NCBI GenBank assembly: GCA_025062245.1
Contig: JANXAD010000001.1
Coordinates: forward strand, 1-64,000
Direction: 5' to 3'
DNA length: 64,000 nucleotides
DNA from: Thermodesulfobacteriaceae bacterium
Lineage (GTDB): Bacteria; Desulfobacterota; Thermodesulfobacteria; Thermodesulfobacteriales; Thermodesulfobacteriaceae
The position numbers and the translations under genes were made by a program. A model generated the notes under the pieces. That model did not search any database, was not told the DNA's origin, and saw nothing but the letters and a program-made list of their open reading frames with translations. Numbering within the stretch: the first letter of the stretch is position 1; each line of letters starts with the position of its first letter. Below are positions 21,252 through 52,094 of the stretch, one piece after another.

Positions 21252-22355
21252 TTATTTAAAGAAAGTTCGCTTAAAGGCTATGTTAAATAACAAAGATATC
21301 AAAATATAAGTAGAAACAGTTATAGAACCACCATAACTAATAAAGGGTAAAGGGATACTGGTCATAGGTAAAAGGCCTATTACCCCTCCAATGTTAAAAA
21401 AGGCTTGCCAAAAAAGAATTAAAGCTATGCCTAAGCTTAAGTATTTACCTAAGAGGTCCTTAGCAGTTTCAGAAACTAAAATGGCATAATAAACTAAAAA
21501 TCCATAAAGAAACAAAAACACACTTACCCCTATAAGTCCCCAGGTTTCAGACCATACCGCAAAGGCTAAATCGGTCCTTTTGGCAGGTAGGTAGTGTAGT
21601 TTAGTAGACCATCCCTTTTTAAAACCCTGTCCTATAATACCCCCAGAACCAACAGCAATAAGGGACTGATTTAACTGATATCCCCAAGTTTGGGAATACT
21701 TTTCTGGATATAAATAACCTAAAATCCTTCCTTTTTGATGGGGCTTAAGTTTTGACCATCCCAAGGGAACCATTAGGATACTGACTAAGGCTCCTATTAA
21801 TATTAAAATCAACAAAACCCTTTTAGGAATTCCCAAGAAAAGTACAAAAAAAACAAACATACCACCCATAATAAAAGCATAATCAAGATCTAAAGGAGCA
21901 ATGAAAATAAGAGGCACTAAAATAAGCCCCATCAGTTTAAGTAAAGTTTTTAAACTCAAATAAATAGAGGCCTCTTTAACTACTATTAAACTTATTAAAA
22001 AAATGAGAAGAGGTTTTATAAATTCTGAAGGCTGTAAATTGAAAAAACCTAAATTTAACCATCTCTTTTGAAAAAGTAAACATATTAATAAAATAAAATT
22101 TAAAAATATATAAATAGAAAAGACTATCTTAAGGGTAATTTTCCGGTAGTCTCCCAAAAAACCTAAAAATACCAAAATACCTATACCTAAAATATGGGAG
22201 GCTAAATTCTTCCAAAGATAAAGGTATTCTTCACCCATTCCCAATTGATTTAATTCACTTATCAAAATTAAAAAAAATAAGACTATAAAGGGAAGTTTAA
22301 AAGTTTTAAAAATCAGTTTTATCTTATCTTTCTCCATGGTTATACAAAGTTTCAT
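21252..22355 (-). CDS. rodA: Rod-shape glycosyltransferase RodA (SEDS family)
   Basis: LQPSEFIKPLLIF, GWGYQLNQSLIAVGSGGIIGQGFKKG, LPMTSIPLPFISYGGS-type SEDS motifs; follows PBP2. Confidence 0.93.
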   Translation of the reverse strand: MKLCITMEKDKIKLIFKTFKLPFIVLFFLILISELNQLGMGEEYLYLWKNLASHILGIGILVFLGFLGDYRKITLKIVFSIYIFLNFILLICLLFQKRWLNLGFFNLQPSEFIKPLLIFLISLIVVKEASIYLSLKTLLKLMGLILVPLIFIAPLDLDYAFIMGGMFVFFVLFLGIPKRVLLILILIGALVSILMVPLGWSKLKPHQKGRILGYLYPEKYSQTWGYQLNQSLIAVGSGGIIGQGFKKGWSTKLHYLPAKRTDLAFAVWSETWGLIGVSVFLFLYGFLVYYAILVSETAKDLLGKYLSLGIALILFWQAFFNIGGVIGLLPMTSIPLPFISYGGSITVSTYILISLLFNIAFKRTFFK

Positions 22356-24234
22356 TATAGATTTCTTCTAAGGGTATTTCTTCTATAGTTTCCTGTTCCT
22401 TTAGAGTAGGTAAAGGGATAAAGAGGTTATAAAATTTTCGGTAAATCAATCCTGCTAAGGGTGCAGCTACTGCACCTCCTGAACCACCATGTTCTACCAG
22501 AATAGCACTTACTATTTCAGGTTTTTCCTTTCCTGCATAACTTATAAACCAAGCATGATGTTCTAAATTTTTAGTCTTTTTAGCTAAACTTACTACTTGA
22601 GCGGTTCCGGTTTTTCCTGCCACAAAAATTTCAGGAACAAAAGCAGCTTTACCTGTGCCCTCTTTAACTACTTTAACCAAACCTTCTCTTATCCACTCTA
22701 AGTGGGTTAAATCTACTTCCACTTTTTTCTCCAAAATAGGAGAAAATTCAACTTCCGTTCCATCTAATTTTTTAATCTTTTTCACTATATAGGGTTTATA
22801 AATTAGTCCTCCATTAGCTATAGCCATATAAACCTTAGCAAGTTGGATAGGAGTGGTAGAAATATAACCCTGTCCTATTCCTAAAACTACGGTTTCACCA
22901 GGGTACCATTCCTGTTGGTAGACTCTTTTTTTCCAGGCTCTATCTGGAATAAGTCCTGCCTTTTCGTTAGGATACCCTAAACCTGAAGGTTTACCTAATC
23001 CAAATTCTCGGGAAATCTCAGCCAAAAGATTAACTTCCACCTTAGAGGAAATCCAATAAAAAAAGATATCACAGGAAACTGCCATAGCTTTAAGTAAATT
23101 TACACCTCCGTGTCCTCTCTTTTCCCAACATCTAAAAACTCTGGTGCCAAAGGGAAAGTAGCCTGGACAATATGCACTGGTATTTAAATCCTTAATTATT
23201 CCTGACTTTAGTCCAGCTAAAGCAGTAATCACTTTGTAAGTAGAACCTGGAGGATAGGCTTGAAAAACTCTATTTAAAAAGGGTTTCTTGGGGTCTAAAT
23301 TTACTTTTTCCCACTCTTCCTTACTAAAACCTTCTATAAACTTATTAGGATCTATAGATGGAGTACTTACTAAGGCTAAAACTTCTCCACTCTCAGGAGA
23401 AAGAGCTATTATTCCAGCCCTTTTCTCTTTAACCAATTCATAAATAAACATTTGTAAATCATGTCTTACGCTTAAAATTAGATCGTTACCGGCTTGGGGT
23501 TCTGACCTTCCTATAACTTTTCCCAATCTTCCAAAGGCATCCCTTTCTATCTCTATAACTCCATTTTTTCCCTTAAGCTCTTTCTCAAAAAGCCATTCTA
23601 ACCCACCTCTTCCAATATAATCCTCCATTGAATATCCCTTATCTTTTAAGGTTTCATATTCTTCTTGAGTAACCTTAGAGATATAACCTAAAAGGTGAAA
23701 ATAGGCTTCCCCATAGGGATAATACCTTTCCGTTTCTACTTCAATGCTTACCCCTGGTAAGTAATAAAGTCTCACCATAAGTTTAGCTACCTCATCCCAA
23801 GAAAGATTTCTCCTAAGAAGAACTCTGGCTAAGGAACTCTTTTTAGCTAAATAGTATCTTTCTTTTAAAACTGAAAAGTCCTCTCTTAAAATTTTACTTA
23901 ACTTATATAAAAGCTCTTCTTCTCTATTTTTTATAATTTCTATATCTAAGTAAAGTTGAAAAACAGCTTTACTGGTAGCAACCACCACGCCGTCAGCGGT
24001 ATAAATTTGTCCTCGGGGAGCTTTCAAAATATAATTAACTACAGACCTTTCCTTAGCTTTTTTATAATAATAGGGATGCTTTAAGGTCTGAAGATAAACA
24101 ATTTTAACTATACAAATCAAAGAGAGAAGACCTAACAAAATTTTTACCCAGTAGATTCTATGAGGCCAAAAATCTGTTTTTAAAATAGTTTCCTTTTCAA
24201 CTTCTTTATAATTCTTATTATTCCACCTTATCAT
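22324..24234 (-). CDS. mrdA: Penicillin-binding protein 2 (elongation transpeptidase)
   Basis: APRGQIYTADG, SxxK in AYPPGSTYKVI, SCD in AVSCDIFFYWI, KTG in VAGKTGTAQV; all catalytic motifs intact. Confidence 0.95.
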   Translation of the reverse strand: MIRWNNKNYKEVEKETILKTDFWPHRIYWVKILLGLLSLICIVKIVYLQTLKHPYYYKKAKERSVVNYILKAPRGQIYTADGVVVATSKAVFQLYLDIEIIKNREEELLYKLSKILREDFSVLKERYYLAKKSSLARVLLRRNLSWDEVAKLMVRLYYLPGVSIEVETERYYPYGEAYFHLLGYISKVTQEEYETLKDKGYSMEDYIGRGGLEWLFEKELKGKNGVIEIERDAFGRLGKVIGRSEPQAGNDLILSVRHDLQMFIYELVKEKRAGIIALSPESGEVLALVSTPSIDPNKFIEGFSKEEWEKVNLDPKKPFLNRVFQAYPPGSTYKVITALAGLKSGIIKDLNTSAYCPGYFPFGTRVFRCWEKRGHGGVNLLKAMAVSCDIFFYWISSKVEVNLLAEISREFGLGKPSGLGYPNEKAGLIPDRAWKKRVYQQEWYPGETVVLGIGQGYISTTPIQLAKVYMAIANGGLIYKPYIVKKIKKLDGTEVEFSPILEKKVEVDLTHLEWIREGLVKVVKEGTGKAAFVPEIFVAGKTGTAQVVSLAKKTKNLEHHAWFISYAGKEKPEIVSAILVEHGGSGGAVAAPLAGLIYRKFYNLFIPLPTLKEQETIEEIPLEEIYNETLYNHGER

Positions 24235-24727
24235 AGCTCAATTTAGAAAATTTTATAATAACTAAATATAAAAGCAGAGTCCAACCATAGGTTAAGCCAA
24301 AGTAAACTAAAAACTTTAAAATTAAAGAACTTATAAGTTCTAAATTTATTTTGATTTTTAAACGGTAAATAAAAAAGAATAAATTAACTAAGGTTATTAA
24401 AAAAATACTAATACTCCATAGAATAAGTTTTAATTTAAATCCTTCTAATTTAAAATATTTTTCAAATTTTTCCCAAGCCAGTCCTAAAAGAACAAAGATT
24501 ACTCCCCAAAAGATTTCTCCTATGAGAAGGATTCCTTTAAAAACCCCCAAAAAGAATAAACTAAGAAAAACCCAAAAACTGAAAATTTTAAAAGAGAGAA
24601 TAACTAAAGCTAAAGCTAAAAAGGGATCTCCTAAATAAAAAGAAAAAAGGGTGCCTTCTAAAATTTTTATAAAGAATAACCATAAGAGTAAAGGCAAAAG
24701 AACATAAAAAGAAAACTTAATACCCAT
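24218..24727 (-). CDS. mreD: Putative rod shape-determining protein MreD
   Basis: Small multi-TM protein between mreC and mrdA. Confidence 0.7.
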   Translation of the reverse strand: MGIKFSFYVLLPLLLWLFFIKILEGTLFSFYLGDPFLALALVILSFKIFSFWVFLSLFFLGVFKGILLIGEIFWGVIFVLLGLAWEKFEKYFKLEGFKLKLILWSISIFLITLVNLFFFIYRLKIKINLELISSLILKFLVYFGLTYGWTLLLYLVIIKFSKLSYDKVE

Positions 24728-24732
24728 AGGGG

Positions 24733-25563
24733 TTAAAAGGAAATTTCAGGGGTTTTTATTAGCACAAAAACTATTCCCAAATTATGAAGATCCACCCAAG
24801 GCTTAACTTCAGCCTTCTTAAAAAGACCCTGGGTCTCTTCTCTACTTACCGAAACTACCTCTCCTACCATTAAACCCGGAGGAAATAAGGCATCCTGTCC
24901 GGAGGTGACTATCAAGTCCTTAGGTTGAACTTGAGAATAAAGAGGAAGGTATTCTAAGTTACAAAGAGGTTCAGCCTTACCTTTAAGAATACCCCTATCT
25001 CTGGTTCTTTGAACTACCACATCCACTGCAAAAGAGGGATCGGTAATCAATATGGCTTTGCTCCAATTTCTATAAACTTCAACTACCTGTCCTACTAAGG
25101 TTAGGCCTTTTTCTCCAGCTGAAGACAAAATGGGCATTTGAGGTAAAATTCCATCTTGACTTCCCTTATCTATAAAAATAACCCCTAAAAAGGGGTCCAT
25201 AGGTTTTAAAATTATTCTAGCTCCCACCTTAGGATAGGAAAGAAAAGGAGAAATTTTGTAAAACCTTTCTAACTCTTGATAAAGGGCCTCCCTTTCCCTG
25301 TAAAGGTTTAATTCTGACCTGAGCTTTAAAATTTCCTCTTTTAGCTTTTCATTTTCCCTCTTTAACTCCACTAAGGCTAAGTAATCTCTATAAAAACTTT
25401 TCAATTCCCATCCCAAAAAACTTCCCGATTTCCATAAGGGGGAAAAAACATAACCCAAAATTTCACTAAAAAATCCCTTCTTTCTTAGTCCATACCAAAT
25501 TCCTCCTAAAAAAACTACTAAAGTTAATACCAGAAAAATAAGAAAAAATCTCTTAAGGGACAT
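24733..25563 (-). CDS. mreC: Rod shape-determining protein MreC
   Basis: N-terminal TM, coiled coil, LKPMDPFLGVIFIDKGSQDGI..MPILSSAGEKGLTLVGQVVEVYRNWSKAILITDPSFAVDV. Confidence 0.93.
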   Translation of the reverse strand: MSLKRFFLIFLVLTLVVFLGGIWYGLRKKGFFSEILGYVFSPLWKSGSFLGWELKSFYRDYLALVELKRENEKLKEEILKLRSELNLYREREALYQELERFYKISPFLSYPKVGARIILKPMDPFLGVIFIDKGSQDGILPQMPILSSAGEKGLTLVGQVVEVYRNWSKAILITDPSFAVDVVVQRTRDRGILKGKAEPLCNLEYLPLYSQVQPKDLIVTSGQDALFPPGLMVGEVVSVSREETQGLFKKAEVKPWVDLHNLGIVFVLIKTPEISF

Positions 25564-34865: not shown

Positions 34866-35921
34866 GTGAACAGAGATAAAGAAGTTATTTGTTTTTTTGA
34901 GATGCCCTTAGAGTGGCAAAGACAAAAGTATATCCGTAAACTTACGAAAAAACTTGAAGAAATAAATAGGGAAGCTGAACTTCTTTTTGTGGACTATCCT
35001 CTTAATGAAAATACTGCCTCAGAACATTATAATATCTCCATTGCAGTAATTTACATTAACTCCTGTATAAATTCCCAAACCTTAGAAAAGTTACATAATT
35101 TAAGGTTTTTAATTACCAGGACTACAGGAATAGATCATATTGACCTTTTGGCTTGTAAACGCAGAGGAGTTACAGTAGCAAATCTTCCCTATTATGCCTC
35201 GGTTACGGTAGCTGAACATACTATAGCTTTTATGTTTGCTTTAGCTAGAAAAATGAAAAGTGCCATAGAAAAAACTCAGAGATTTAATTTTTCTCGGGAT
35301 GGACTTTTGGGTTTAGACCTTTATGGAAAAACCATAGGAGTTATCGGAACAGGTAACATAGGAAAAGAGATAGTAAGAATGGCCTACGGAATAGGTATGA
35401 AAATTTTAGCTCACGATATTAATCCCTCTAAGGAATTGGCAGAAAAATATGAAGTAAATTATGTAAGCTTAGAAGAACTCTTAGAAAAATCAGATGTCAT
35501 TATTGTGATGGTGCCCTATTATTCTAAAACTCATCATCTTATAAATAAAAATAATATTAAATTAATCAAGGATACTGCCATGTTAATTAATACTGCCAGA
35601 GGACCTGTGGTAGATACAGAGGCTCTGATATGGGCTTTAGAGAATGGAAAACTTAAGGGGGGGGTAGCTTTAGATGTCTTTGAGGGAGAAAAGGTCTTAT
35701 TAGAAAGAAGTTATTTAAAGGAGGAGGTTCAACTCTCTATAGAGGAAAGAAAAGCTCTGAGAACCTTACACCTCTTACAGTATTCAAACGTGATGCTTAC
35801 TCCCCATGTAGCCCATTATAGTGCAGAAGCAGTAGAAAGAGTTATAGATTGTGTAGTGGAAGATATTATCTATTTTCTTTTATATAGAACCAGTAAAGTT
35901 ACTTTTCAAGTTTACTTTTAA
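34866..35921 (+). CDS. D-isomer-specific 2-hydroxyacid dehydrogenase, copy 1 (catalytic His retained)
   Basis: GVIGTGNIGKEIVRMA, NTARGPVVDTEALIWALENGKLKGGVALDVFEGE, LTPHVAHYS; GTG start. Confidence 0.9.
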   Translation: MNRDKEVICFFEMPLEWQRQKYIRKLTKKLEEINREAELLFVDYPLNENTASEHYNISIAVIYINSCINSQTLEKLHNLRFLITRTTGIDHIDLLACKRRGVTVANLPYYASVTVAEHTIAFMFALARKMKSAIEKTQRFNFSRDGLLGLDLYGKTIGVIGTGNIGKEIVRMAYGIGMKILAHDINPSKELAEKYEVNYVSLEELLEKSDVIIVMVPYYSKTHHLINKNNIKLIKDTAMLINTARGPVVDTEALIWALENGKLKGGVALDVFEGEKVLLERSYLKEEVQLSIEERKALRTLHLLQYSNVMLTPHVAHYSAEAVERVIDCVVEDIIYFLLYRTSKVTFQVYF

Positions 35922-35939: not shown

Positions 35940-36986
35940 ATGCACGAAAAAATTTGTTTTTTTGAGATCACTAAGGATTGGGACCCGGAATCCTATTCTC
36001 AAAAAATAAAAAATAAATTGGAAGAAGTTCAAAAAAGAGCAGAGATTCTTTTTGTAGAGGAACCTTTAAAGGAGGAAAATGCAGGAAATCATTGGGACAT
36101 TACCATAGCTTCTATTTACTTAGATTCGGTGATAAATGAGCAAATTTTACAAAAAATGCCTTCCCTAAAACTTATCATTACCAGAACGGTAGGGTTTGAC
36201 CACATAGATATCTTAGCCTGTAAAAGAAGGGGTATTATAGTTTCTAATGTTCCAAGTTATGCCCCTATTACAGCTGCAGAATATGTTTTCAGTTTAATTT
36301 TTACCTTAGCCAGAAGATTTCAAGTCGCCTTAGAAAAGATTAAAAATTTTGATTTTTCAAGAGAAGGACTTTTAAGTATAGACCTTTTCCAAAAGACCAT
36401 AGGTATCATAGGAACAGGAAACATTGGAAGTGAGGTAGCCAGATTAGCCTATGGAATAGGAATGAGAGTTATAGCCTACGATATTAATCCTTCTTCTCTA
36501 CTGGTAGAAAAATATAAGGTAGAATATGTTTCTTTAGAACAGCTTTTAAAAGAGTCAGATATCATCATTTTAATGATTCCCTATTATTCTAAAACCTATC
36601 ACTTTATTAACAAAGAAAATATAAGATTGGTTAAGGAAAATGCCATGTTAATTAATGTAGCCCGAGGTCCTTTAGTTGAGACTGATGCCTTGCTATGGGC
36701 TTTAGAGAATGGAAAACTTAAAGGAGGAGTGGCTTTAGATGTTTTTGAGGGAGATTACCTTTTTTTAGAAGAACTTTATTTAAAAGATCAAAGCATACCT
36801 TGGGAGGAGTGTCAAAAAAGTTTAAAAGCTCTTAAGCTTTTAAGTTATCCCCAAGTGATTTACACCCCAAGACTGGCAGATTATACTGAAGAAGGATTGG
36901 AAAAATTAAAAGAATTAGTCATAAGAGATATCGTACACTTTTTAACTTACGGAAGTTGTATAACTAAGGTAGAACCTTACTTTTAA
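35940..36986 (+). CDS. D-isomer-specific 2-hydroxyacid dehydrogenase paralogue, copy 2 (catalytic His replaced by Arg)
   Basis: GIIGTGNIGSEVARLA, NVARGPLVETDALLWALENGKLKGGVALDVFEGD, but YTPRLADYT where copy 1 has LTPHVAHYS. Confidence 0.88.
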   Translation: MHEKICFFEITKDWDPESYSQKIKNKLEEVQKRAEILFVEEPLKEENAGNHWDITIASIYLDSVINEQILQKMPSLKLIITRTVGFDHIDILACKRRGIIVSNVPSYAPITAAEYVFSLIFTLARRFQVALEKIKNFDFSREGLLSIDLFQKTIGIIGTGNIGSEVARLAYGIGMRVIAYDINPSSLLVEKYKVEYVSLEQLLKESDIIILMIPYYSKTYHFINKENIRLVKENAMLINVARGPLVETDALLWALENGKLKGGVALDVFEGDYLFLEELYLKDQSIPWEECQKSLKALKLLSYPQVIYTPRLADYTEEGLEKLKELVIRDIVHFLTYGSCITKVEPYF

Positions 36987-38969: not shown

Positions 38970-40094
38970 TTAATCGGCACTTCTTCTAAGAAAGGTAGGG
39001 ATTTCCAGTAAATCCTCAGTAATAAAGTCTAAGGAAAATTTTTTCCTCCTTTCTTCTTTTCTTTTCAGAGATTCGTCCAAATAAATTAAACCTTCCTTTT
39101 CTGAGGTTGGGACTTTTTTATCTTCCTTTAATCCTGTAGCAATTACCGTAATCCTTAAAAGATCTCCTAAACTTTCATCAAAAACTATACCCCAAAAGAC
39201 TTTAGCATCTGGATGAAGTTCCTTAGAAATAGTAGAGGTAATAATTTGGGTTTCCTGTATAGTGAAAGTTTCAGGACTTACGGTGATATTTAAGATTAAG
39301 CCTTTAGCTCCAGAAATAGATAAATCTTCTAAGAGGGGACTGGAGATGGCCATTTGAGTTGCAATTTCTGCTCTTTCTTCACCGTGGGCCTCCCCCATTC
39401 CCATAAGAGCCAATCCTCCGCTTTCACCCATAACCATTTTTACATCTGCAAAATCAAGATTAATATAACCGGGTGAAAGAATTAAATCTGAAATACCCTT
39501 TACGGCATAATATAATACATCATCTGCTTTTTTAAACATTTCAAAGAGTTTTTCCTGGGGAGCTCCTAAGGTAATTAACCTGTCGTTAGGTATAACTATC
39601 ATAGTATCTACATATTTTTTCAACTCTTCTAAACCCTCTTCAGCCACCTTCATTCTAAATCTTCCTTCAAAGGTAAAAGGTTTAGTTACTACCGCTACCG
39701 TTAAAATTTCCATTTCTTTACATATTCGGGCTATTACGGGAGAAGCTCCTGTTCCTGTGCCTCCTCCCATGCCAGCAGCTATAAAAACCATATCGGCATT
39801 GGCTAAACATTCTCTAATCTCCCTTTCACTCTCTAAAGCAGATTGTCTTCCAATTTCAGGATCCCCCCCTGCTCCTAATCCTTTAGTTAAATTTTTACCT
39901 AAATGAATTTTAGTTGAGGCTAAATTTAAGCTTAAAATCTTATAATCGGTATTGGCTGCTATAAATTCCACTCCTTGAAGTCCCTTTTTTATCATATTTC
40001 CTAAGGCGTTTCCTCCTCCACCACCTACTCCTATAACTTTTATATTAGGTTGAATCTTTAAGTCTCCCTCTTCCCTAAAAATAGAATTAGCCAT
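38970..40094 (-). CDS. ftsZ: Cell division protein FtsZ
   Basis: KVIGVGGGGGNALGNMI, FIAAGMGGGTGTGASPVIARICKE, PNDRLI; divergent C-terminus ending EIPTFLRRSAD. Confidence 0.98.
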   Translation of the reverse strand: MANSIFREEGDLKIQPNIKVIGVGGGGGNALGNMIKKGLQGVEFIAANTDYKILSLNLASTKIHLGKNLTKGLGAGGDPEIGRQSALESEREIRECLANADMVFIAAGMGGGTGTGASPVIARICKEMEILTVAVVTKPFTFEGRFRMKVAEEGLEELKKYVDTMIVIPNDRLITLGAPQEKLFEMFKKADDVLYYAVKGISDLILSPGYINLDFADVKMVMGESGGLALMGMGEAHGEERAEIATQMAISSPLLEDLSISGAKGLILNITVSPETFTIQETQIITSTISKELHPDAKVFWGIVFDESLGDLLRITVIATGLKEDKKVPTSEKEGLIYLDESLKRKEERRKKFSLDFITEDLLEIPTFLRRSAD

Positions 40095-40109: not shown

Positions 40110-41324
40110 TTAAAATTTTGATTTGATTAATTCTTTAATTCTTTCCCAAAGACTTTTACCTTTGGATTTTACCTCAGCTTCAGTCTCTAAGGCACTATAG
40201 GCGTAAAGCAACAAACCTACTGCGGTGGCATACTGGGGATGATAAATCTCTTCAGTAAGGCCTGGAAGCTTAGGTGGATAACCTATTCTGGTGGGTAGAT
40301 CTAAAATCTGGTCTGCTAAATAAATTAATCCAGGGATAAGAGCAGAACCTCCAGTTAAAACTAAACCACTGGTAATTTTCATTTTGTCCCCAAAATTACT
40401 TAGTTCCGCCTCCACTAATTCCAAAAGTTCTCTTACTCTAAGCTCTAAAATTTCGGCTAAAACTTTTCGACTCAATTTTTTAGAGGGTCTATTCCCTATT
40501 CCAGGCACCTCCACAATCTCCTCATCTTGTACCAATTCCTTTAAGCAAACCCCTGATTGAATCTTTAATCTTTCAGCCTCGGTTCTGGAAGTTCTTAACC
40601 CTATAGCTAAATCATTAGTAAGAAGTTCTCCTCCCACAGGAATAGAGGATACAAATCTTAAAACATTATCCCAAAAACAAATTATATCTGTAGTTCCTCC
40701 TCCAAAATCTATAAGCACTACCCCTAATTCCTTTTCTTCAGGAGTTAAAACTGCTTCGGCAGAAGCTATTCCCTGAAAAACTATTCCCTCTATTTCCAAA
40801 TTTAACTTTTCAAAACAGCGGATCAAATTCTGCAAAACCGAACGATTAGCTGTAATAAACTGGACATGGGCCTCCAATCTCATGCCTGTCATTCCTACAG
40901 GATGTAAAATCCCTCGGTGTTGGTCCACAATAAATTCTTGAGGAATAACATGTAAGATAGTTCTATCAGGAGGTAGTTCAATAGCTTGGGCAGATTCTAA
41001 CACTTCTTGAACTTCTAAAGAGGTAACCTGTTTTTCCTTTAAAGCCACTACTCCCATTCCAGAAACAGTTTTAATATGACTTCCAGCTATACTGGTATAA
41101 ACACTTTTAACATTTACCTTAGCTTGACCTTTAGCCTTTTCTATAGCACTTTTTATACTTAAAGTAGCTTCTTCTATATTAATAATTATACCTTTTTTTA
41201 ATCCCTTAGAAGGAACTACTCCCATACCAGTAACCCAAAGTTTACCTTCCCTTTCCTCTCCTATCAAAGCACAAATTTTAGTAGTTCCTATGTCTACTAC
41301 TAAAATAGCCTCTTCTTTACCCAT
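40110..41324 (-). CDS. ftsA: Cell division protein FtsA
   Basis: VVDIGTTKICALIGE, VLIDFGGGTTDIICFWD, LVLTGGSALIPGL. Confidence 0.97.
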   Translation of the reverse strand: MGKEEAILVVDIGTTKICALIGEEREGKLWVTGMGVVPSKGLKKGIIINIEEATLSIKSAIEKAKGQAKVNVKSVYTSIAGSHIKTVSGMGVVALKEKQVTSLEVQEVLESAQAIELPPDRTILHVIPQEFIVDQHRGILHPVGMTGMRLEAHVQFITANRSVLQNLIRCFEKLNLEIEGIVFQGIASAEAVLTPEEKELGVVLIDFGGGTTDIICFWDNVLRFVSSIPVGGELLTNDLAIGLRTSRTEAERLKIQSGVCLKELVQDEEIVEVPGIGNRPSKKLSRKVLAEILELRVRELLELVEAELSNFGDKMKITSGLVLTGGSALIPGLIYLADQILDLPTRIGYPPKLPGLTEEIYHPQYATAVGLLLYAYSALETEAEVKSKGKSLWERIKELIKSKF

Positions 41325-41327
41325 TTT

Positions 41328-42056
41328 TTAACTCCTAAATTTAATTAAAGCTTTACCAAAAGGATAATCCATTCTTATTACTTCAATTTTTTCCATTAAG
41401 TTCTTTTCATAAAAATAAGTTACAATTCTATCCAAATTTTTATATAAAAATTGCCAGTCCTTTTCCATAATTAAAGGAAAATAGATTTTAACCTGATTTT
41501 TAGTAATAAAAATAATACTATCTTCTTCTAAAATAATTTTAGAAAAACTTTCATATACTGGTAAATAGGATTTATTACTTTTAAGCCAACTCAAAAAGTT
41601 AAAAAAGTTTTCCCTAAATTCTTCATTTTTTATCTCTACTATAGGATAAAATAGGTAATCTTCAGGTAAAATACCACTTATTATTTCTCCTCTTTTACTT
41701 ATCAAGAATCCTTTATTATCTTTTATTAAAATAGCTAAGGGTTCCTTTTCTTTTACTTTTATCTCTAAAAGGCCAGGAAGATGCCTAATTACTAAAACCT
41801 CTTCTATTCTGGGATGTTTCAGAAGTTTTTCTCTGATTATGGAGAGAGAAATTTTATAAAGCCTTTCTCCTCCTTTGAGTTCAGTAAATTTAATAATTTC
41901 TTCTTTGCTTATTTTATTATTACCAACTATCCTAATTTCCTTAAGTAAAAAGAGATCGGTAAAATAAAGTAAATAAAAAATAGTAAAAAATAAAAAGAAA
42001 AGCACACCTCCACCAATTACAAAGGGGTTTTTTATCAATTTTTTTACAAGCTGCAT
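41328..42056 (-). CDS. ftsQ: Cell division protein FtsQ (POTRA)
   Basis: Single TM plus POTRA-like LKEIRIVGNNKISKEEIIKFTELKGGERLYKIS; between murB and ftsA. Confidence 0.88.
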   Translation of the reverse strand: MQLVKKLIKNPFVIGGGVLFFLFFTIFYLLYFTDLFLLKEIRIVGNNKISKEEIIKFTELKGGERLYKISLSIIREKLLKHPRIEEVLVIRHLPGLLEIKVKEKEPLAILIKDNKGFLISKRGEIISGILPEDYLFYPIVEIKNEEFRENFFNFLSWLKSNKSYLPVYESFSKIILEEDSIIFITKNQVKIYFPLIMEKDWQFLYKNLDRIVTYFYEKNLMEKIEVIRMDYPFGKALIKFRS

Positions 42057-42958: not shown

Positions 42959-44325
42959 TTCTTTAATAGGTTATGAAGTTTGTAAATATCTCCTGCTCCC
43001 ATAGTTACTATTACTTGTCCTGGTTCTACTATTTTTTTTAAGATTTCTACTGCATTGGGGAGGTCTTTGGTAAAAAAGGTGGGTTTATTACTTCTTAAAC
43101 TATTCACATTTTCAAAAAGAGTTCTTCCGCTAATTCCAGGAAGGGGAGCTTCGCTGGCAGGATAAATTTCAGTTAAAATTAAAATATCCGGTTCCTTTAA
43201 AACTATCAAAAAATCTTCCCAAAGGGCTTTCACTCGAGTATAACGATGGGGTTGAAAAACTAAAAGGAGTTTTTTATCAGAATACATTTTTCTTAAAGTT
43301 GATAAGGTTTCTTCTACCTCCTTAGGATGATGCGCATAATCGTCAAGAAGATAACATCCTTCCCACTCACCCTTGAATTCCAATCTTCTTCCAACCCCTT
43401 TAAAATTCTCTAAAACCTCTAAAACCTTAGCTATGGGCAAGTTAAGTTCTAAAGCTACCCCTAGGGCTCCTAAAGCATTAAGCACATTATGGGTCCCAGG
43501 AACCCCTAATTTCATTTTACCTAAGGGTTTATCCTCCTTGTAAATTTCTACCAAAGGATAGGCTTTATCCTCAAGAATTTTACCTCTTAAAAGATTTTTC
43601 TCTAAAAATCCATAAAAAAGAAAGGGCCCAAAAATTTCCTTAGAAATATCTTGGACTCCCTGATCGTCTCCGCATAGAATAACCTTTCCTTGAGCAGAAC
43701 ACCTTTTAATAAAATTAATAAAAGCCTTTTTAACGGCCGAAAAGTCTGCATAAAAGTCAAGATGTTCCCTATCTATGTTGGTAATCACCTCTATAAAGGG
43801 GTTATAACATAAAAAAGAACCATCACTTTCATCAGCCTCAGCCACTAAAAATTCGCTTTTACCCAAAACAGAGTGACTATTAATATTTTTAATAATTCCT
43901 CCTACTATTACCGTAGGATTCTTCTTAAGAGCTATAAGGATTTCTGCGATCATAGAAGTGGTGGTGGTCTTTCCGTGAGAACCAGCTACTACGATACTTT
44001 TGGGATACAAATTCATCACTTGAGAAAGCATCTGGGCTCTTGGAATTACCCACAATCCCATTTCCTTAGCTTTTACCAGCTCTACATTTTCTAAGGAGAC
44101 CGCTGAAGAGTATACTACTATTTCAGGTTTTTCCTTTTCTAAGTGTTTTTTAGAATGCTCATAATACACTGTTATACCCTTTTTTTCTAAAATTTGGGTA
44201 TACTTACTTTGACTTATATCACAGCCTGTAACCCTATGTCCTAAGGTAGCCAAAACTAAAGCTAAACTACTCATTCCTACTCCACCAATACCCACAAAAT
44301 GAATATTTCTCTTTTTCTCAAGCAT
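42955..44325 (-). CDS. murC: UDP-N-acetylmuramate--L-alanine ligase
   Basis: HFVGIGGVGMSSLA, VAGSHGKTTTTSMIAEI, DDYAHHPKEVEETL. Confidence 0.97.
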   Translation of the reverse strand: MLEKKRNIHFVGIGGVGMSSLALVLATLGHRVTGCDISQSKYTQILEKKGITVYYEHSKKHLEKEKPEIVVYSSAVSLENVELVKAKEMGLWVIPRAQMLSQVMNLYPKSIVVAGSHGKTTTTSMIAEILIALKKNPTVIVGGIIKNINSHSVLGKSEFLVAEADESDGSFLCYNPFIEVITNIDREHLDFYADFSAVKKAFINFIKRCSAQGKVILCGDDQGVQDISKEIFGPFLFYGFLEKNLLRGKILEDKAYPLVEIYKEDKPLGKMKLGVPGTHNVLNALGALGVALELNLPIAKVLEVLENFKGVGRRLEFKGEWEGCYLLDDYAHHPKEVEETLSTLRKMYSDKKLLLVFQPHRYTRVKALWEDFLIVLKEPDILILTEIYPASEAPLPGISGRTLFENVNSLRSNKPTFFTKDLPNAVEILKKIVEPGQVIVTMGAGDIYKLHNLLKK

Positions 44326-45400
44326 TTTCCACCAAGGCTTCCATCTCTTTTATAATTATTTCTTCTGAATTTTCTACATAAAAATCTTCCATAGCTTTAG
44401 CCATATTTTTAAGCTTTTTTTCATCTTGAAAGAGCTCTTTAAGCAAAGAGTATACCCTATCGGGAGTTGCTACTTCCTGCCTTAAGTAAAAGGCTCCTCC
44501 CTTTTTAGCTACAATTTCTGCATTTCTTTCTTGATGATTTTTGGTGGCATAGGGGAAGGGAATAAAAAGGGCAGGTTTCCCTAAGGCAAAAAGTTCTGCT
44601 AAGGTAGTTGCTCCTGCTCTTCCCAAAATTAAATCTGCCTGGGCATAAGCCCAAGCCATATCTTCAATAAAAGAAAAAACCTTTATTCTCTCTAATTGTT
44701 CTTGAGATAAAATTTTTAAGTACTCCTCCCTAACCCAATCCAAATCTTCTAAACCTGTTTGATGGATAACTAACAAATTTTCAAATTCAGCTAAAAGTTG
44801 GGGCACTACTTTAAGGGCAAGTTGATTGATAAATCTGGCTCCCAAGCTTCCTCCTAAAATTAAAAGTCCCTTTCCAGAATGTTCTTTTTCCCTCCTTTTT
44901 TTAATTTCCCCTCTTACAGGATTTCCAGAAAAAACCACCTTTTTAGAGGGAAAAAATTTTTCACTTCCTGGTATACTAATAAAAACTTTATCTACTAATT
45001 TACTTAATACTTTATTAGCTAAACCTGGTTCTAAATTTTGCTCGTGCAAAGAGGTTCTTTTACCCTTAAGTTTGCCTGCCAAAACTACGGGAAAGGAGAT
45101 ATAACCACCTGTAGCAAAGATAATCTGAGGTTCTATAGTTTTTATAAATTTACAGGCCTTTAAAAAAGCCTTTATCATTTTGTAACTGGCTTTTATTTTA
45201 TCTTTAAGAGCTCTGCCTAAGAATCCTTCTACCTCTAATTCTAAAACTGGAAAGGGTTTATTTTTTAAAATTAGACGTTCTATTTTTCTCGTGCCAGAAA
45301 TAAAGTAAACCTCTCGTCCTCTTTCTAAAAGGCTTTGAGCTAAGGCTAAACCTGGAAAAATGTGCCCCCCTGTTCCACCTGCTACAATTAACCACCTCAA
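44318..45400 (-). CDS. murG: UDP-GlcNAc:lipid I GlcNAc transferase MurG
   Basis: VAGGTGGHIFPGLALA, LHEQNLEPGLANKVLSKL, ILGGSLGARFINQL, GRAGATTLAEL. Confidence 0.97.
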   Translation of the reverse strand: MRWLIVAGGTGGHIFPGLALAQSLLERGREVYFISGTRKIERLILKNKPFPVLELEVEGFLGRALKDKIKASYKMIKAFLKACKFIKTIEPQIIFATGGYISFPVVLAGKLKGKRTSLHEQNLEPGLANKVLSKLVDKVFISIPGSEKFFPSKKVVFSGNPVRGEIKKRREKEHSGKGLLILGGSLGARFINQLALKVVPQLLAEFENLLVIHQTGLEDLDWVREEYLKILSQEQLERIKVFSFIEDMAWAYAQADLILGRAGATTLAELFALGKPALFIPFPYATKNHQERNAEIVAKKGGAFYLRQEVATPDRVYSLLKELFQDEKKLKNMAKAMEDFYVENSEEIIIKEMEALVENA

Positions 45401-46803
45401 TGGTAAACCTCTTTTTTATCTTCTAAAGCTCTTTCTTTAAAAAAAGAGGGAGCATATTTTAAAACCAGTTCTCTAAAAATTTCTCCTCTTTCTTGATAAT
45501 CACTAAATTGGTCAAAACTTGAACAGGCTGGGGAGAAAAGAACCGTATCCCCTGGTTGAGAAATTTTAAAAGCTAAGGCTAAAGCCTCAGCTAAGTTGTC
45601 TACCATGTAAGTTTCTGTTAAACCTTGAAGCTCTTCAGCTATAATATACTTAGCTTCTCCCATTAAAATAAGACTTTTAACCTTTTCTTTGATGAAAGCT
45701 GCCAAAGGTAAGTAAGAAGCTCCCTTATGTTTACCTCCTAAGATCAGAATTACAGGATAATTAACTGAATTTAAAGCCTGTAAAGTGGCATCCACATTGG
45801 TAGCTTTGGAATCATTAATGAAATAAACTCCTCCGAAGCTTCCAACAAACTCCAATCTATGAGGAAATCCTGTAAATTCTTTAATAAGCTTAGCTATACT
45901 CTCTTTGGAAGCTCCAAGCAAACGAGCTCCTAAACTACCTGCTATATAATTTAGTTTATTATGTATCCCTTTAAGTTTAAAGCCTAAAAAGGAAAAAACC
46001 TCTTCTCCCTCTTCCGTAGTTAACACGAATTCTTCTTCACCTTTCAAATAGGCCGAAAGATTTTTTTCCTTTCCAAAAAAGAGAAGAGTTCCACCTATCA
46101 TATTTTTAAACTTTTCAAACCAGGATTCCTTATAAGGCAAAATGCTAAAGTCTTCTTTTCTCTGCTTTTCAAAAAGTCTATATTTATAATAGGCATATTC
46201 TTCTTCGTTACGGTATCTTTCCAAGTGATCAGGGGTTATATTTAAAAGAATTCCGATTTTGGGAAAAAAGTTTTCAATCGTTTCTAATTGAAAACTTGAA
46301 ACCTCTAAAACTAATTTATCTACTTTAGCTTGAGATAAAACATATTCAGAAAGGGGAATCCCGAAATTAGCTCCGGTAAAGACTTTGTAACCTGAAAGTT
46401 TTAATAATTCAGAAACTATGGAAGTGGTGGTGGTCTTTCCGTTAGTTCCAGTAATAGCAATAGTGTTTTCCTTTTCCTTTTCAGAGAGAAATCGCCAAGC
46501 AAGTTCTAATTCACTCCATACTGGTATTTCCCTTTTATAGCAAATTGCGTAAACTTCTCTTGGAACCCCAGGGCTTACTACAATCAAATCTGCAGAAAGC
46601 AAAGTCTCTTTCTTATGCCCACCTGTTTCAAAGATTACCCCTCCACTTATTTCAAAGGTTGAAATCAGAGAAGGGGGAAGCTCCTCTTTCTTTCTTTTTT
46701 CCGAAATAATTACATTGGCTCCCTTTACTAAAAGAAGCCGAGTAGCTGCTATTCCACTTTTTCCATATCCTATTACTACTACCCTTTTATTTCTAAGATT
46801 CAT
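45397..46803 (-). CDS. murD: UDP-N-acetylmuramoylalanine--D-glutamate ligase
   Basis: VVIGYGKSGIAATRLLL, AITGTNGKTTTTSIVSELL, FINDSKATNVDATLQAL; overlaps murG start with no ftsW between. Confidence 0.97.
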   Translation of the reverse strand: MNLRNKRVVVIGYGKSGIAATRLLLVKGANVIISEKRKKEELPPSLISTFEISGGVIFETGGHKKETLLSADLIVVSPGVPREVYAICYKREIPVWSELELAWRFLSEKEKENTIAITGTNGKTTTTSIVSELLKLSGYKVFTGANFGIPLSEYVLSQAKVDKLVLEVSSFQLETIENFFPKIGILLNITPDHLERYRNEEEYAYYKYRLFEKQRKEDFSILPYKESWFEKFKNMIGGTLLFFGKEKNLSAYLKGEEEFVLTTEEGEEVFSFLGFKLKGIHNKLNYIAGSLGARLLGASKESIAKLIKEFTGFPHRLEFVGSFGGVYFINDSKATNVDATLQALNSVNYPVILILGGKHKGASYLPLAAFIKEKVKSLILMGEAKYIIAEELQGLTETYMVDNLAEALALAFKISQPGDTVLFSPACSSFDQFSDYQERGEIFRELVLKYAPSFFKERALEDKKEVYH

Positions 46804-49307: not shown

Positions 49308-50764
49308 AGGGGCTTAAGATTTTCCACAATTTTTAGAATTTCTTCTTTATCTGAAAAGGGAATTCTTTGGCCCTTAATTTCCAAATAATTTTCATGTCCT
49401 TTCCCAGCTATTAACAATATATCACCCTTTTTTAAATTTTTGAGAGCCCACTCTAAAGCTAATTTTCTATCAGGAATAACTTCATAAGGAGTTTTATGAT
49501 TTAAGCCTTTTTTTATGTCCTTTATAATTTCTAAGGGTTCTTCAAATCTGGGATTATCAGAAGTTAAAATTACTAAATCTGAAAGTTCACTGGCAATTTT
49601 ACCCATAAGGGGCCTTTTAGAGGCATCCCTATTTCCTCCACATCCAAAAAGAACTATAAGTCTATTTTTCTTAAGAGGGTTAAGACTCTTTAAGGCTACT
49701 TCTAAGGCCGATGGGGTATGAGCATAATCGATTAAAATTTTAGCCTCCTTAAATTCAGCTACTAATTCAAGTCTTCCTGGGGGATTTTTTAAATCCTTTA
49801 AAACTTTAATAAAATCTTCTTCCTCATAACCTAGGGCTAATAAAATACCCCAAAGGGTCATCAAATTTTTAGCTTGATAGTCTCCTACGAGAGAGGTAGA
49901 GATTTGATATTCTTTACCTCTACTTTTAACCTTCAAAAGTAAGCCTTCAGTTCTTTCTAAAATTTCTACTCCTATTTCTCCATCGTTTACTAAAAGTTTA
50001 GGAAGGTCACTAAGTTCTTTTGCCAATCTTTCTCCGTAAGAAGTTTCCAAGGAAATCACAGCCTTTCCCTCGGGTTTTAAGTAATGGGTAAAAAGTTTTT
50101 TCTTAGCCTGGTAGTAGTTTTCCATAGTAAGATGATAATCCAGATGGTCTTGGGAAAGATTAGTAAAAACTCCAAGATCAAACTTAATTCCCCAGATTCT
50201 ATCTTGATCTAAAGCATGGGAAGAAACTTCCATAACTATGGTATTTATTCCCTTTTTTACGGTTTTTTGAAAAAGTTTTCCTAAGGTCAAAAGAGAAGGC
50301 GTAGTCTCTTTAGCTTCCAAGATTTCATCTCCTAATTCATAAAAGAGGGTTCCTAAATAAGCACTCTTAAGTCCTAAGTTAGAAAGAACCTTCTTGGTAA
50401 AATAACTTACCGAAGTTTTACCATTAGTCCCGGTAACTCCTATTAGGAAAAGTTTATCAAGGGGCACTTCATAATAGTTAAAAACCAATTGAAAAAGAGC
50501 TTTTTTAAGGTTTCTAACTTGAATTTGAAATACTTCCTTAAAAAGAGGATCTGGAGGAGTTTCTCTTAAAATAGCCTTAGCTCCCTTGGAAATAGCCTCT
50601 GGAATAAAATCTTCTCCATTTAAGGTACAACCTCTTTTAGCTATAAAGAGATAGCCTGGTAAAACTTCCTTAGAATTTTCCGTTATTCCATTTATAAAAA
50701 TTTTTGAAGGTTGAGGAACTATTTTAACTATTTCTCCCTCTAAGATTGAAATTAATTCTTTCAT
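49304..50764 (-). CDS. murE: UDP-N-acetylmuramoyl-tripeptide synthetase (meso-DAP type)
   Basis: GVTGTNGKTSVSYF, TNLSQDHLDYHLTMENY, DNPRFE motif indicating meso-diaminopimelate addition. Confidence 0.96.
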   Translation of the reverse strand: MKELISILEGEIVKIVPQPSKIFINGITENSKEVLPGYLFIAKRGCTLNGEDFIPEAISKGAKAILRETPPDPLFKEVFQIQVRNLKKALFQLVFNYYEVPLDKLFLIGVTGTNGKTSVSYFTKKVLSNLGLKSAYLGTLFYELGDEILEAKETTPSLLTLGKLFQKTVKKGINTIVMEVSSHALDQDRIWGIKFDLGVFTNLSQDHLDYHLTMENYYQAKKKLFTHYLKPEGKAVISLETSYGERLAKELSDLPKLLVNDGEIGVEILERTEGLLLKVKSRGKEYQISTSLVGDYQAKNLMTLWGILLALGYEEEDFIKVLKDLKNPPGRLELVAEFKEAKILIDYAHTPSALEVALKSLNPLKKNRLIVLFGCGGNRDASKRPLMGKIASELSDLVILTSDNPRFEEPLEIIKDIKKGLNHKTPYEVIPDRKLALEWALKNLKKGDILLIAGKGHENYLEIKGQRIPFSDKEEILKIVENLKPL

Positions 50765-51753
50765 AGCTTTTGAGCTAAATGTTTTAAATTATTCAATTTT
50801 ATTTGAGGTTTTTCTACAATTTCATCCATTAAAATTATAAGTCTATCTTTTTTAAAAGCCAAATAAAGAACTTTGTTCTCCAGATAAAAGATACAGGGAA
50901 ATTTAGCAAACACTTCTAAGGAGGGTTGACAAAGGGGGACTCGAGGTAAAAGAGTAAGTTCCTCCGTATTATTACAAGCCTTGTTAAAAAACCACTTAGC
51001 CAAATGAAGAGGAGTTATTTTAACCTTAGAATTTTTATTAACTACCTTTATCTCTCCCAACTCCCAACGCAAAGAGGAAACTTCTTCCCTATTTAAACCA
51101 AAGTCTGAGAGAGGAAAATACTGAGTAAAATAAGAGCTTTCAGAGGGTTCCCAGTAAACTAAAAATTCTCCGCTTTTTAAATCTATTACCGCTACACTCA
51201 AAGGATTATTTTTTATTCTATGGTATAATTCCCTCTGAAGTTTCATGTCCAAAGATATTCTAATCCAATTTCCTTCCTTTAAAACCCCATTAAAAATCAT
51301 CTCTAATCCAGAAACTCCTGTTTCGTTGATCACTTCCCCTATAAGAAATTTCATAAAAGGCTGTAAAAGGAGGCGAACATAATAACTCTCTATAAAAACA
51401 TTTTCTTCTCTTTTTAATTTTTCAACTTCTTTGGAATCTATGTTATCTGAAAGCAACCACAAACCCTTTTTAGGAAGTTCTAAAAAGGAAGGCAGATATT
51501 TAGCAACTAAAGGAGAAGGATTTTTACTAAAAAAACCTTCCTCAATTAAATAATAGGCTTTATAAAATTCTGTAGAAAGAGCAATGGGTTCAAAATTTCT
51601 ATCTAAAATAGCACCCCTTTTAACACTTGAGGAGATATCAGTCTTACCTTTTACTTTTGGCGTAGTCAAGCTTGAAGTAGAAATTAAGATAAAAATAAAG
51701 AGAAAGGAAAAAAAGCTAAATTTAAAGGGGGGCTTCATTTTTCTAATTTCCAA
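50761..51753 (-). CDS. Truncated FtsI-like protein at the ftsI position, without recognisable transpeptidase catalytic motifs
   Basis: FtsI/PBP pedestal motifs KRGAILDRNFEPIALS, IGEVINETGVSGLEMIFNGVL, ISLDMKLQRELYHRI, AVIDLKSGEFL, ITPLHLAKWF; no SxxK, SxN or KTG in the expected region. Confidence 0.8.
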   Translation of the reverse strand: MEIRKMKPPFKFSFFSFLFIFILISTSSLTTPKVKGKTDISSSVKRGAILDRNFEPIALSTEFYKAYYLIEEGFFSKNPSPLVAKYLPSFLELPKKGLWLLSDNIDSKEVEKLKREENVFIESYYVRLLLQPFMKFLIGEVINETGVSGLEMIFNGVLKEGNWIRISLDMKLQRELYHRIKNNPLSVAVIDLKSGEFLVYWEPSESSYFTQYFPLSDFGLNREEVSSLRWELGEIKVVNKNSKVKITPLHLAKWFFNKACNNTEELTLLPRVPLCQPSLEVFAKFPCIFYLENKVLYLAFKKDRLIILMDEIVEKPQIKLNNLKHLAQKL

Positions 51754-52094
51754 TAATCCTCTTTTTGAGGGGCTCTTAATCCCAAACTTTTAGCCTTTTC
51801 TAAAAGCACCTCTTGAGAAGTTAGCTTTTTATATTCTTCCCTAAGAGCTTTATTTTCCCTTTCTAAGGTTTTTCTTTCTATTTTGTATTTAATAAATAGA
51901 TAACCTTGGTAACCAAAAGCTATCCAAGAAAGGAGATTTAAAAAAATAAGTATAAATATTAAGCTCTTTAACAGGCACTCCTTTAAAAATTCCTTTAAAG
52001 AAGAGATAGAAGACTCTGAAGAAAAATCCCTTTCCATGGAGGAATAATTAGGCCCTATAGAAGGCTTATAAATTATAGACTTAGGCATTTTCAT
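51735..52094 (-). CDS. ftsL: FtsL-like single-TM coiled-coil protein
   Basis: Single TM (SLIFILIFLNLLSWIAFGYQGYLF) then coiled coil ERKTLERENKALREEYKKL; sits between rsmH and the ftsI-like gene. Confidence 0.75.
   Translation of the reverse strand: MKMPKSIIYKPSIGPNYSSMERDFSSESSISSLKEFLKECLLKSLIFILIFLNLLSWIAFGYQGYLFIKYKIERKTLERENKALREEYKKLTSQEVLLEKAKSLGLRAPQKEDYWKLEK

Follow-up and report, generated by a model that had tools for sequence, protein, structure and literature searches.

The locus

The absence of ftsW from its usual place among the division and cell wall genes raises the question of which enzyme builds the septum in such a bacterium, and what becomes of FtsI, the usual partner of FtsW. 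The window analysed here, that is, the whole stretch of 64,000 nucleotides at the start of contig JANXAD010000001.1 from a heat-loving Thermodesulfobacteriaceae bacterium, carries a dcw cluster that extends from mraZ (53411) to ftsZ (38970), minus strand, in the order mraZ, rsmH, an ftsL-like gene, a degenerate ftsI (hereafter ftsI*), murE, murF, mraY, murD, murG, murC, murB, ftsQ, ftsA and ftsZ. Apart from the absent ftsW, the cluster is complete and its gene order is preserved. At the usual ftsW site, murD (45397..46803, minus strand, 468 aa; Pfam Mur_ligase_M/C and MurD N-terminal models) and murG (44318..45400, minus strand, 360 aa; Pfam Glyco_transf_28 and Glyco_tran_28_C) share the 4 bp TTGA (45397..45400, minus strand): the 3' end of murD reads ...GTT TAC CAT TGA, and the TTG start of murG falls within it. 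The original prediction that this overlap excludes an ftsW between the two genes was confirmed, since the shared TTGA leaves no room for it there.

The other division genes of the cluster, all on the minus strand, are the ftsL-like gene (51735..52094, 119 aa), recognised by its position and by weak NCBIfam FtsL matches (E 2e-4 and 0.006); ftsQ (41328..42056, 242 aa; POTRA_1, PRK05529); and ftsA (40110..41324, 404 aa) and ftsZ (38970..40094, 374 aa), both assigned by position and translated sequence and conserved in relatives. The same ftsW-less cluster was found in every genome of the order with a contig spanning it, closed genomes included, and no SEDS gene stood between murD and murG in any genome of the order from which the dcw cluster was recovered. 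Closed genomes and identical architecture ruled out chance, assembly error or frameshift error behind the missing ftsW. Beside the dcw region, the plus strand of the window also holds a tandem pair of similar D-2-hydroxyacid-dehydrogenase-like genes (34866-35921 and 35940-36986).

A single SEDS gene of the RodA type

The window genome is 93% complete and split into 89 contigs, and the absence of ftsW there is, taken alone, weak evidence. The comparison covered every one of the order's 41 genomes, which fall into 3 families and 10 genera; 7 of them are assembled as a single contig, and the nearest named relative of the window is Thermodesulfobacterium sp. GB_MAG6_111 (L034). A PF01098 profile search of the window genome returned one SEDS gene, the intact rodA of the window (21252..22355, minus strand, 367 aa), and the same search gave one SEDS locus in 41/41 genomes of the order, split across two contigs in G027. 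Neither a second SEDS gene nor a relocated ftsW was found with this profile in the window genome or across the order, which rules out relocation. The seven single-contig relatives, each with one SEDS gene, remove the doubt left by the incomplete window genome. They also largely refute the explanation that there is an FtsW which has diverged beyond the reach of PF01098, or which lies in an unassembled part; the 93% completeness speaks for this explanation, while the abutting murD and murG, which leave no slot in the window, and the loss of the FtsI catalytic motifs in the same genomes (see below) speak against it, so that we hold it to be very improbable.

By profile scores the window protein is nearer to RodA (244 bits) than to FtsW (198 bits), both values being below the respective cut-offs (336.7 for TIGR02210). 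In a SEDS tree of 69 rows all dcw FtsW proteins lie on one side of a branch (99*) and the window protein lies on the RodA side, not branching with dcw FtsW. Its gene also sits in the mre region and adjoins that of PBP2 (mrdA, 22324..24234, minus strand, 636 aa; TIGR03423 595 bits against a cut-off of 455), in which STYK, SCD and KTG are present. The pair is intact and lies downstream of mreC (24733..25563, minus strand, 276 aa; TIGR00219 above cut-off) and of a probable mreD (24218..24727, minus strand, 169 aa), which has no NCBIfam match and was assigned by hydrophobicity and by its position between mreC and pbp2; MreB is kept. A PF00905 search of the window genome found two transpeptidases, PBP2 and a PBP1A-sized gene also carrying GT51, and apart from PBP2 no intact class B PBP was found there. 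Likewise, each genome of the order has one strong class B PBP, adjoining the SEDS gene where the contig permits. The expectation that rodA, paired with an intact PBP2, is the only SEDS gene of the window therefore holds for the whole genome, and the genome-wide check for an intact ftsW-ftsI pair elsewhere found none in the genome or the order.

The window protein has all the residues aligned to W102, E114, K117, D159 and D262 of E. coli RodA, which we take to be the catalytic residues of SEDS proteins; across the order, W102, E114, K117 and D262 are kept in 33/33 sequences and D159 in 32/33. Four other positions, G161, Q250, F263 and G333, are invariant in 56-57/57 other RodA and FtsW proteins and are changed in 31-32/33 RodA proteins of the order (L004-L033 and the window, not f2/G001), namely G161→D, Q250→S, F263→L and G333→S. 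The first lies two residues past D159 and the third is next to D262. Further changes, Y206→H, H260→R/N and E271→T/A, occur in parts of the order, and the active-site neighbourhood of its sole SEDS protein may have been remodelled.

FtsI is retained without its catalytic motifs

The gene ftsI* (50761..51753, minus strand, 330 aa) occupies the slot flanked by the ftsL-like gene and murE. As had been predicted, its product is degenerate: it has no Pfam match, SxxK, SxN and KTG are all absent, and its layout is that of an N-terminal TM helix and a pedestal-like region followed by a mostly eroded transpeptidase domain, with no PASTA domain. The slot is filled throughout the order, and the reading frame is unbroken in all genomes examined. 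The length of FtsI* falls by family, from 522 aa in f2 and 449-474 aa in f3 to 379-392 aa (genera g4/g5, full-length copies) and 291-340 aa (g1/g2/g6) in f1. A C-terminal PASTA domain is present in the f2, f3 and g5 forms tested, and the f2 form still matches PBP_dimer and part of Transpeptidase; none of the three motifs occurs in any aligned FtsI* of the order. A profile built from 17 short FtsI* sequences has matches in SpoVD and FtsI (E 2e-6 at best). On SpoVD the alignment covers the pedestal and runs into the first part of the transpeptidase domain, stopping short of the catalytic serine; the short forms thus correspond to a TM helix with a pedestal-like region. An AlphaFold2 model of the window protein was set aside as evidence (mean pLDDT 49; no Foldseek match at E <= 0.001).

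Such shrinkage, stepwise across families, would also be expected of a functionless, decaying pseudogene product in cells that divide with no need of FtsI, and ftsI* is, together with ftsL, the fastest-evolving gene of the cluster. Nevertheless, six close pairs give it a dN/dS of 0.09-0.22 (about 0.2 for the window gene), which resembles that of ftsL and is mostly above that of the mur genes, and such values indicate purifying selection and not decay. The intact frames, a conserved TM helix with an RGxxxDR / GxSGLE pattern and the retention of the gene through at least two independent losses of ftsW (see below) also argue against this explanation, to which we give hardly any credence. Judged by its dN/dS and its missing motifs, FtsI* is a protein that persists under selection and is enzymatically dead.

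Repeated loss of ftsW in the phylum

The sample was widened to 158 genomes of the phylum, 150 of them outside the order. Among these 150, 28 have one SEDS gene and 1 has none; by neighbourhood, the single gene is a RodA beside PBP2 in 22 and an FtsW in the dcw cluster in 6, so that RodA is the only SEDS protein in 22/150. The dcw loci retrieved for the 22 RodA-only genomes and the SEDS-less one contain no recognisable ftsW, and the FtsI catalytic motifs are absent wherever the slot could be read. In a second, pattern-based test, FtsI had all three motifs in order in 25/25 ftsW-bearing genomes, and SxxK or KTG in 0/54 ftsW-less ones.

In an eight-gene tree, a quick one (LG+G4) with uneven composition, the ftsW-less genomes fall in three places. 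A single origin for all of them was rejected (AU p = 0.0013), ruling out one ancestral loss and implying at least two independent losses of ftsW; joining family f15 to the main ftsW-less clade was compatible with the data (p = 0.72), and f15 may be part of it. As far as motifs and trees tell, the loss of FtsW and the catalytic death of FtsI went together at least twice, independently. The idea of a coordinated loss of the septal pair from the cluster therefore stands for ftsW and for FtsI catalysis, the motifs being lost wherever ftsW is absent, but not for FtsI itself, which is kept in a non-catalytic form.

Two further observations concern the same genomes. The SEDS-less genome (G123, family f12, L193), 99% complete, also has no strong PBP2 match and is left with only PBP1A-like genes and a dead FtsI; its missing SEDS gene could be an assembly gap. 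Moreover, at eight loci (L036, L192, L193, L195, L196, L198, L201 and L203), spanning several ftsW-less families, MurE and MurF are apparently fused, sharing a single frame of about 980-1050 aa.

Families f21/f45 and locus L047 (JAOADT010000004) show a different style of loss. Exactly between murD and murG they carry an ORF of 261-264 aa for a multi-helix membrane protein (L047:12405-13193, with the same slot in L181-L184, L186 and L187), which has no Pfam match and shows 10 helices in a low-confidence structure model. Position and helix number fit an eroded FtsW and are the other point in favour of a cryptic one. However, the hhalign match to FtsW (P = 0.046) was no better than a reversed-profile control (0.019), and homology is consequently not claimed; the ORF may be an eroded FtsW or a replacement. 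The FtsI of these genomes (248-318 aa) has a TM helix, a shortened transpeptidase-like middle and a PASTA-like end, and the pedestal motif was not found in it. Independent losses have thus retained different parts of FtsI, which weakens a single universal scaffold mechanism.

How the septum may be built

We propose that the septal SEDS-bPBP pair was taken apart in the ancestor of the order and of related groups of the phylum: the cluster would have lost ftsW by deletion, and FtsI would have lost its transpeptidase activity but stayed in the divisome as a non-catalytic, membrane-anchored component alongside FtsL, FtsQ, FtsA and FtsZ. RodA-PBP2, the last SEDS-bPBP synthase, would then make both the lateral wall, with MreB, and the septal wall, with FtsZ. 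The TM helix and pedestal-like region of FtsI* may contact FtsQ/FtsL, and FtsI* may help to recruit or activate RodA-PBP2 (or PBP1A) at the ring. We favour this scheme, in which RodA-PBP2 would build both walls, with fair though limited confidence. Its extension, to which we lean only slightly, is that several diderm groups would divide with one SEDS-bPBP machine time-shared between elongasome and divisome, with the FtsI pseudoenzyme as a divisome adaptor, an arrangement that would have arisen at least twice, FtsI catalysis always dying with FtsW.

Experimental systems offer partial likenesses. In B. subtilis, cells can divide with PBP2B(S309A) when the catalysis comes from another PBP (PMC5656894); as proposed from sequence for FtsI*, an inactive divisome bPBP suffices if another PBP transpeptidates. 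PBP2B(S309A) is a laboratory point mutant in cells with FtsW, whereas FtsI* is a natural, fixed pseudoenzyme in lineages that lost ftsW. C. difficile, from a different phylum, resembles the scheme proposed for the order in having RodA-PBP2 as its only essential SEDS-bPBP pair and a vegetative septum made without FtsW-FtsI (PMC10693644). It differs in that active dcw-encoded SpoVE/SpoVD are kept for sporulation and PBP1 makes the septum, while the order has no ftsW and a dead FtsI.

The absence of ftsW in Thermodesulfobacteria and Desulfobulbaceae is already known, having been noted in passing. The relevant phrase of Leonard et al. 2022 reports its loss from the cluster in Thermodesulfobacteria (PMC8871954), and the cable-bacteria paper, in its passages on division, reports it missing in four Desulfobulbaceae genomes (PMC7873302); the same gene is thus absent from dcw in the same or related lineages. 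Those passages speak of no dead FtsI, SEDS count, phylogeny or mechanism, and we found no published statement of a catalytically dead FtsI in these lineages in the open-access literature. The genome-wide single pair and its extent, the status of FtsI as a pseudoenzyme and the recurrent coupling of the two losses appear to be new.

FtsW-FtsI has been called the universally conserved septal synthase (PMC10693644); the entire order dispenses with it, as do at least 22 other genomes sampled from the phylum, while FtsZ, FtsA, FtsQ and a dead FtsI are kept. These are natural experiments on what the divisome requires of FtsI besides transpeptidation, on how FtsQLB signalling can be rewired and on whether a lone SEDS-bPBP pair can be enough for elongation and division alike. 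They also bear on cable bacteria, reported without ftsW: the passages of that paper on division treat FtsI as a recruited divisome member and describe septal synthesis by FtsI from E. coli, assuming its activity (PMC7873302). For annotation, an entry 'ftsI present' is no proof that such a genome has a working septal transpeptidase.

For glycan synthesis the order still has RodA-PBP2 and PBP1A, to which some genera add an MtgA-like enzyme. Nearly all 41 genomes carry a PBP1A-type GT51-TPase, and many, belonging to certain genera, also have a monofunctional MtgA-like GT51. For this reason septation by RodA-PBP2 stays a proposal: PBP1A, with or without the MtgA-like enzyme, might make the septum, with FtsI* recruiting PBP1A and RodA-PBP2 confined to elongation. 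There is experimental precedent for this in C. difficile, where a class A PBP, PBP1, and not RodA-PBP2 drives vegetative septation (PMC10693644), although the retention of SpoVE/SpoVD there makes the parallel partial. In addition, no GT51 was found in one 99%-complete relative (G028); since the PBP1A gene adjoins an rRNA operon and its neighbour is also unrecovered in that genome, an assembly gap is possible. On balance we regard PBP1A septation as conceivable but rather unlikely, and consider that, on gene content, RodA-PBP2 (or a backup enzyme) probably builds the division septum too.

At L223 (G000:C21:8000-20629) the PBP1A gene lies beside a ccsA-like cytochrome-c-biogenesis gene and a gene for a putative reverse gyrase of 1179 aa, and adjoins short ORFs resembling an rRNA operon. 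In one relative (G015:C14:13967-14443), an MtgA-like GT51 gene is broken by stop codons.
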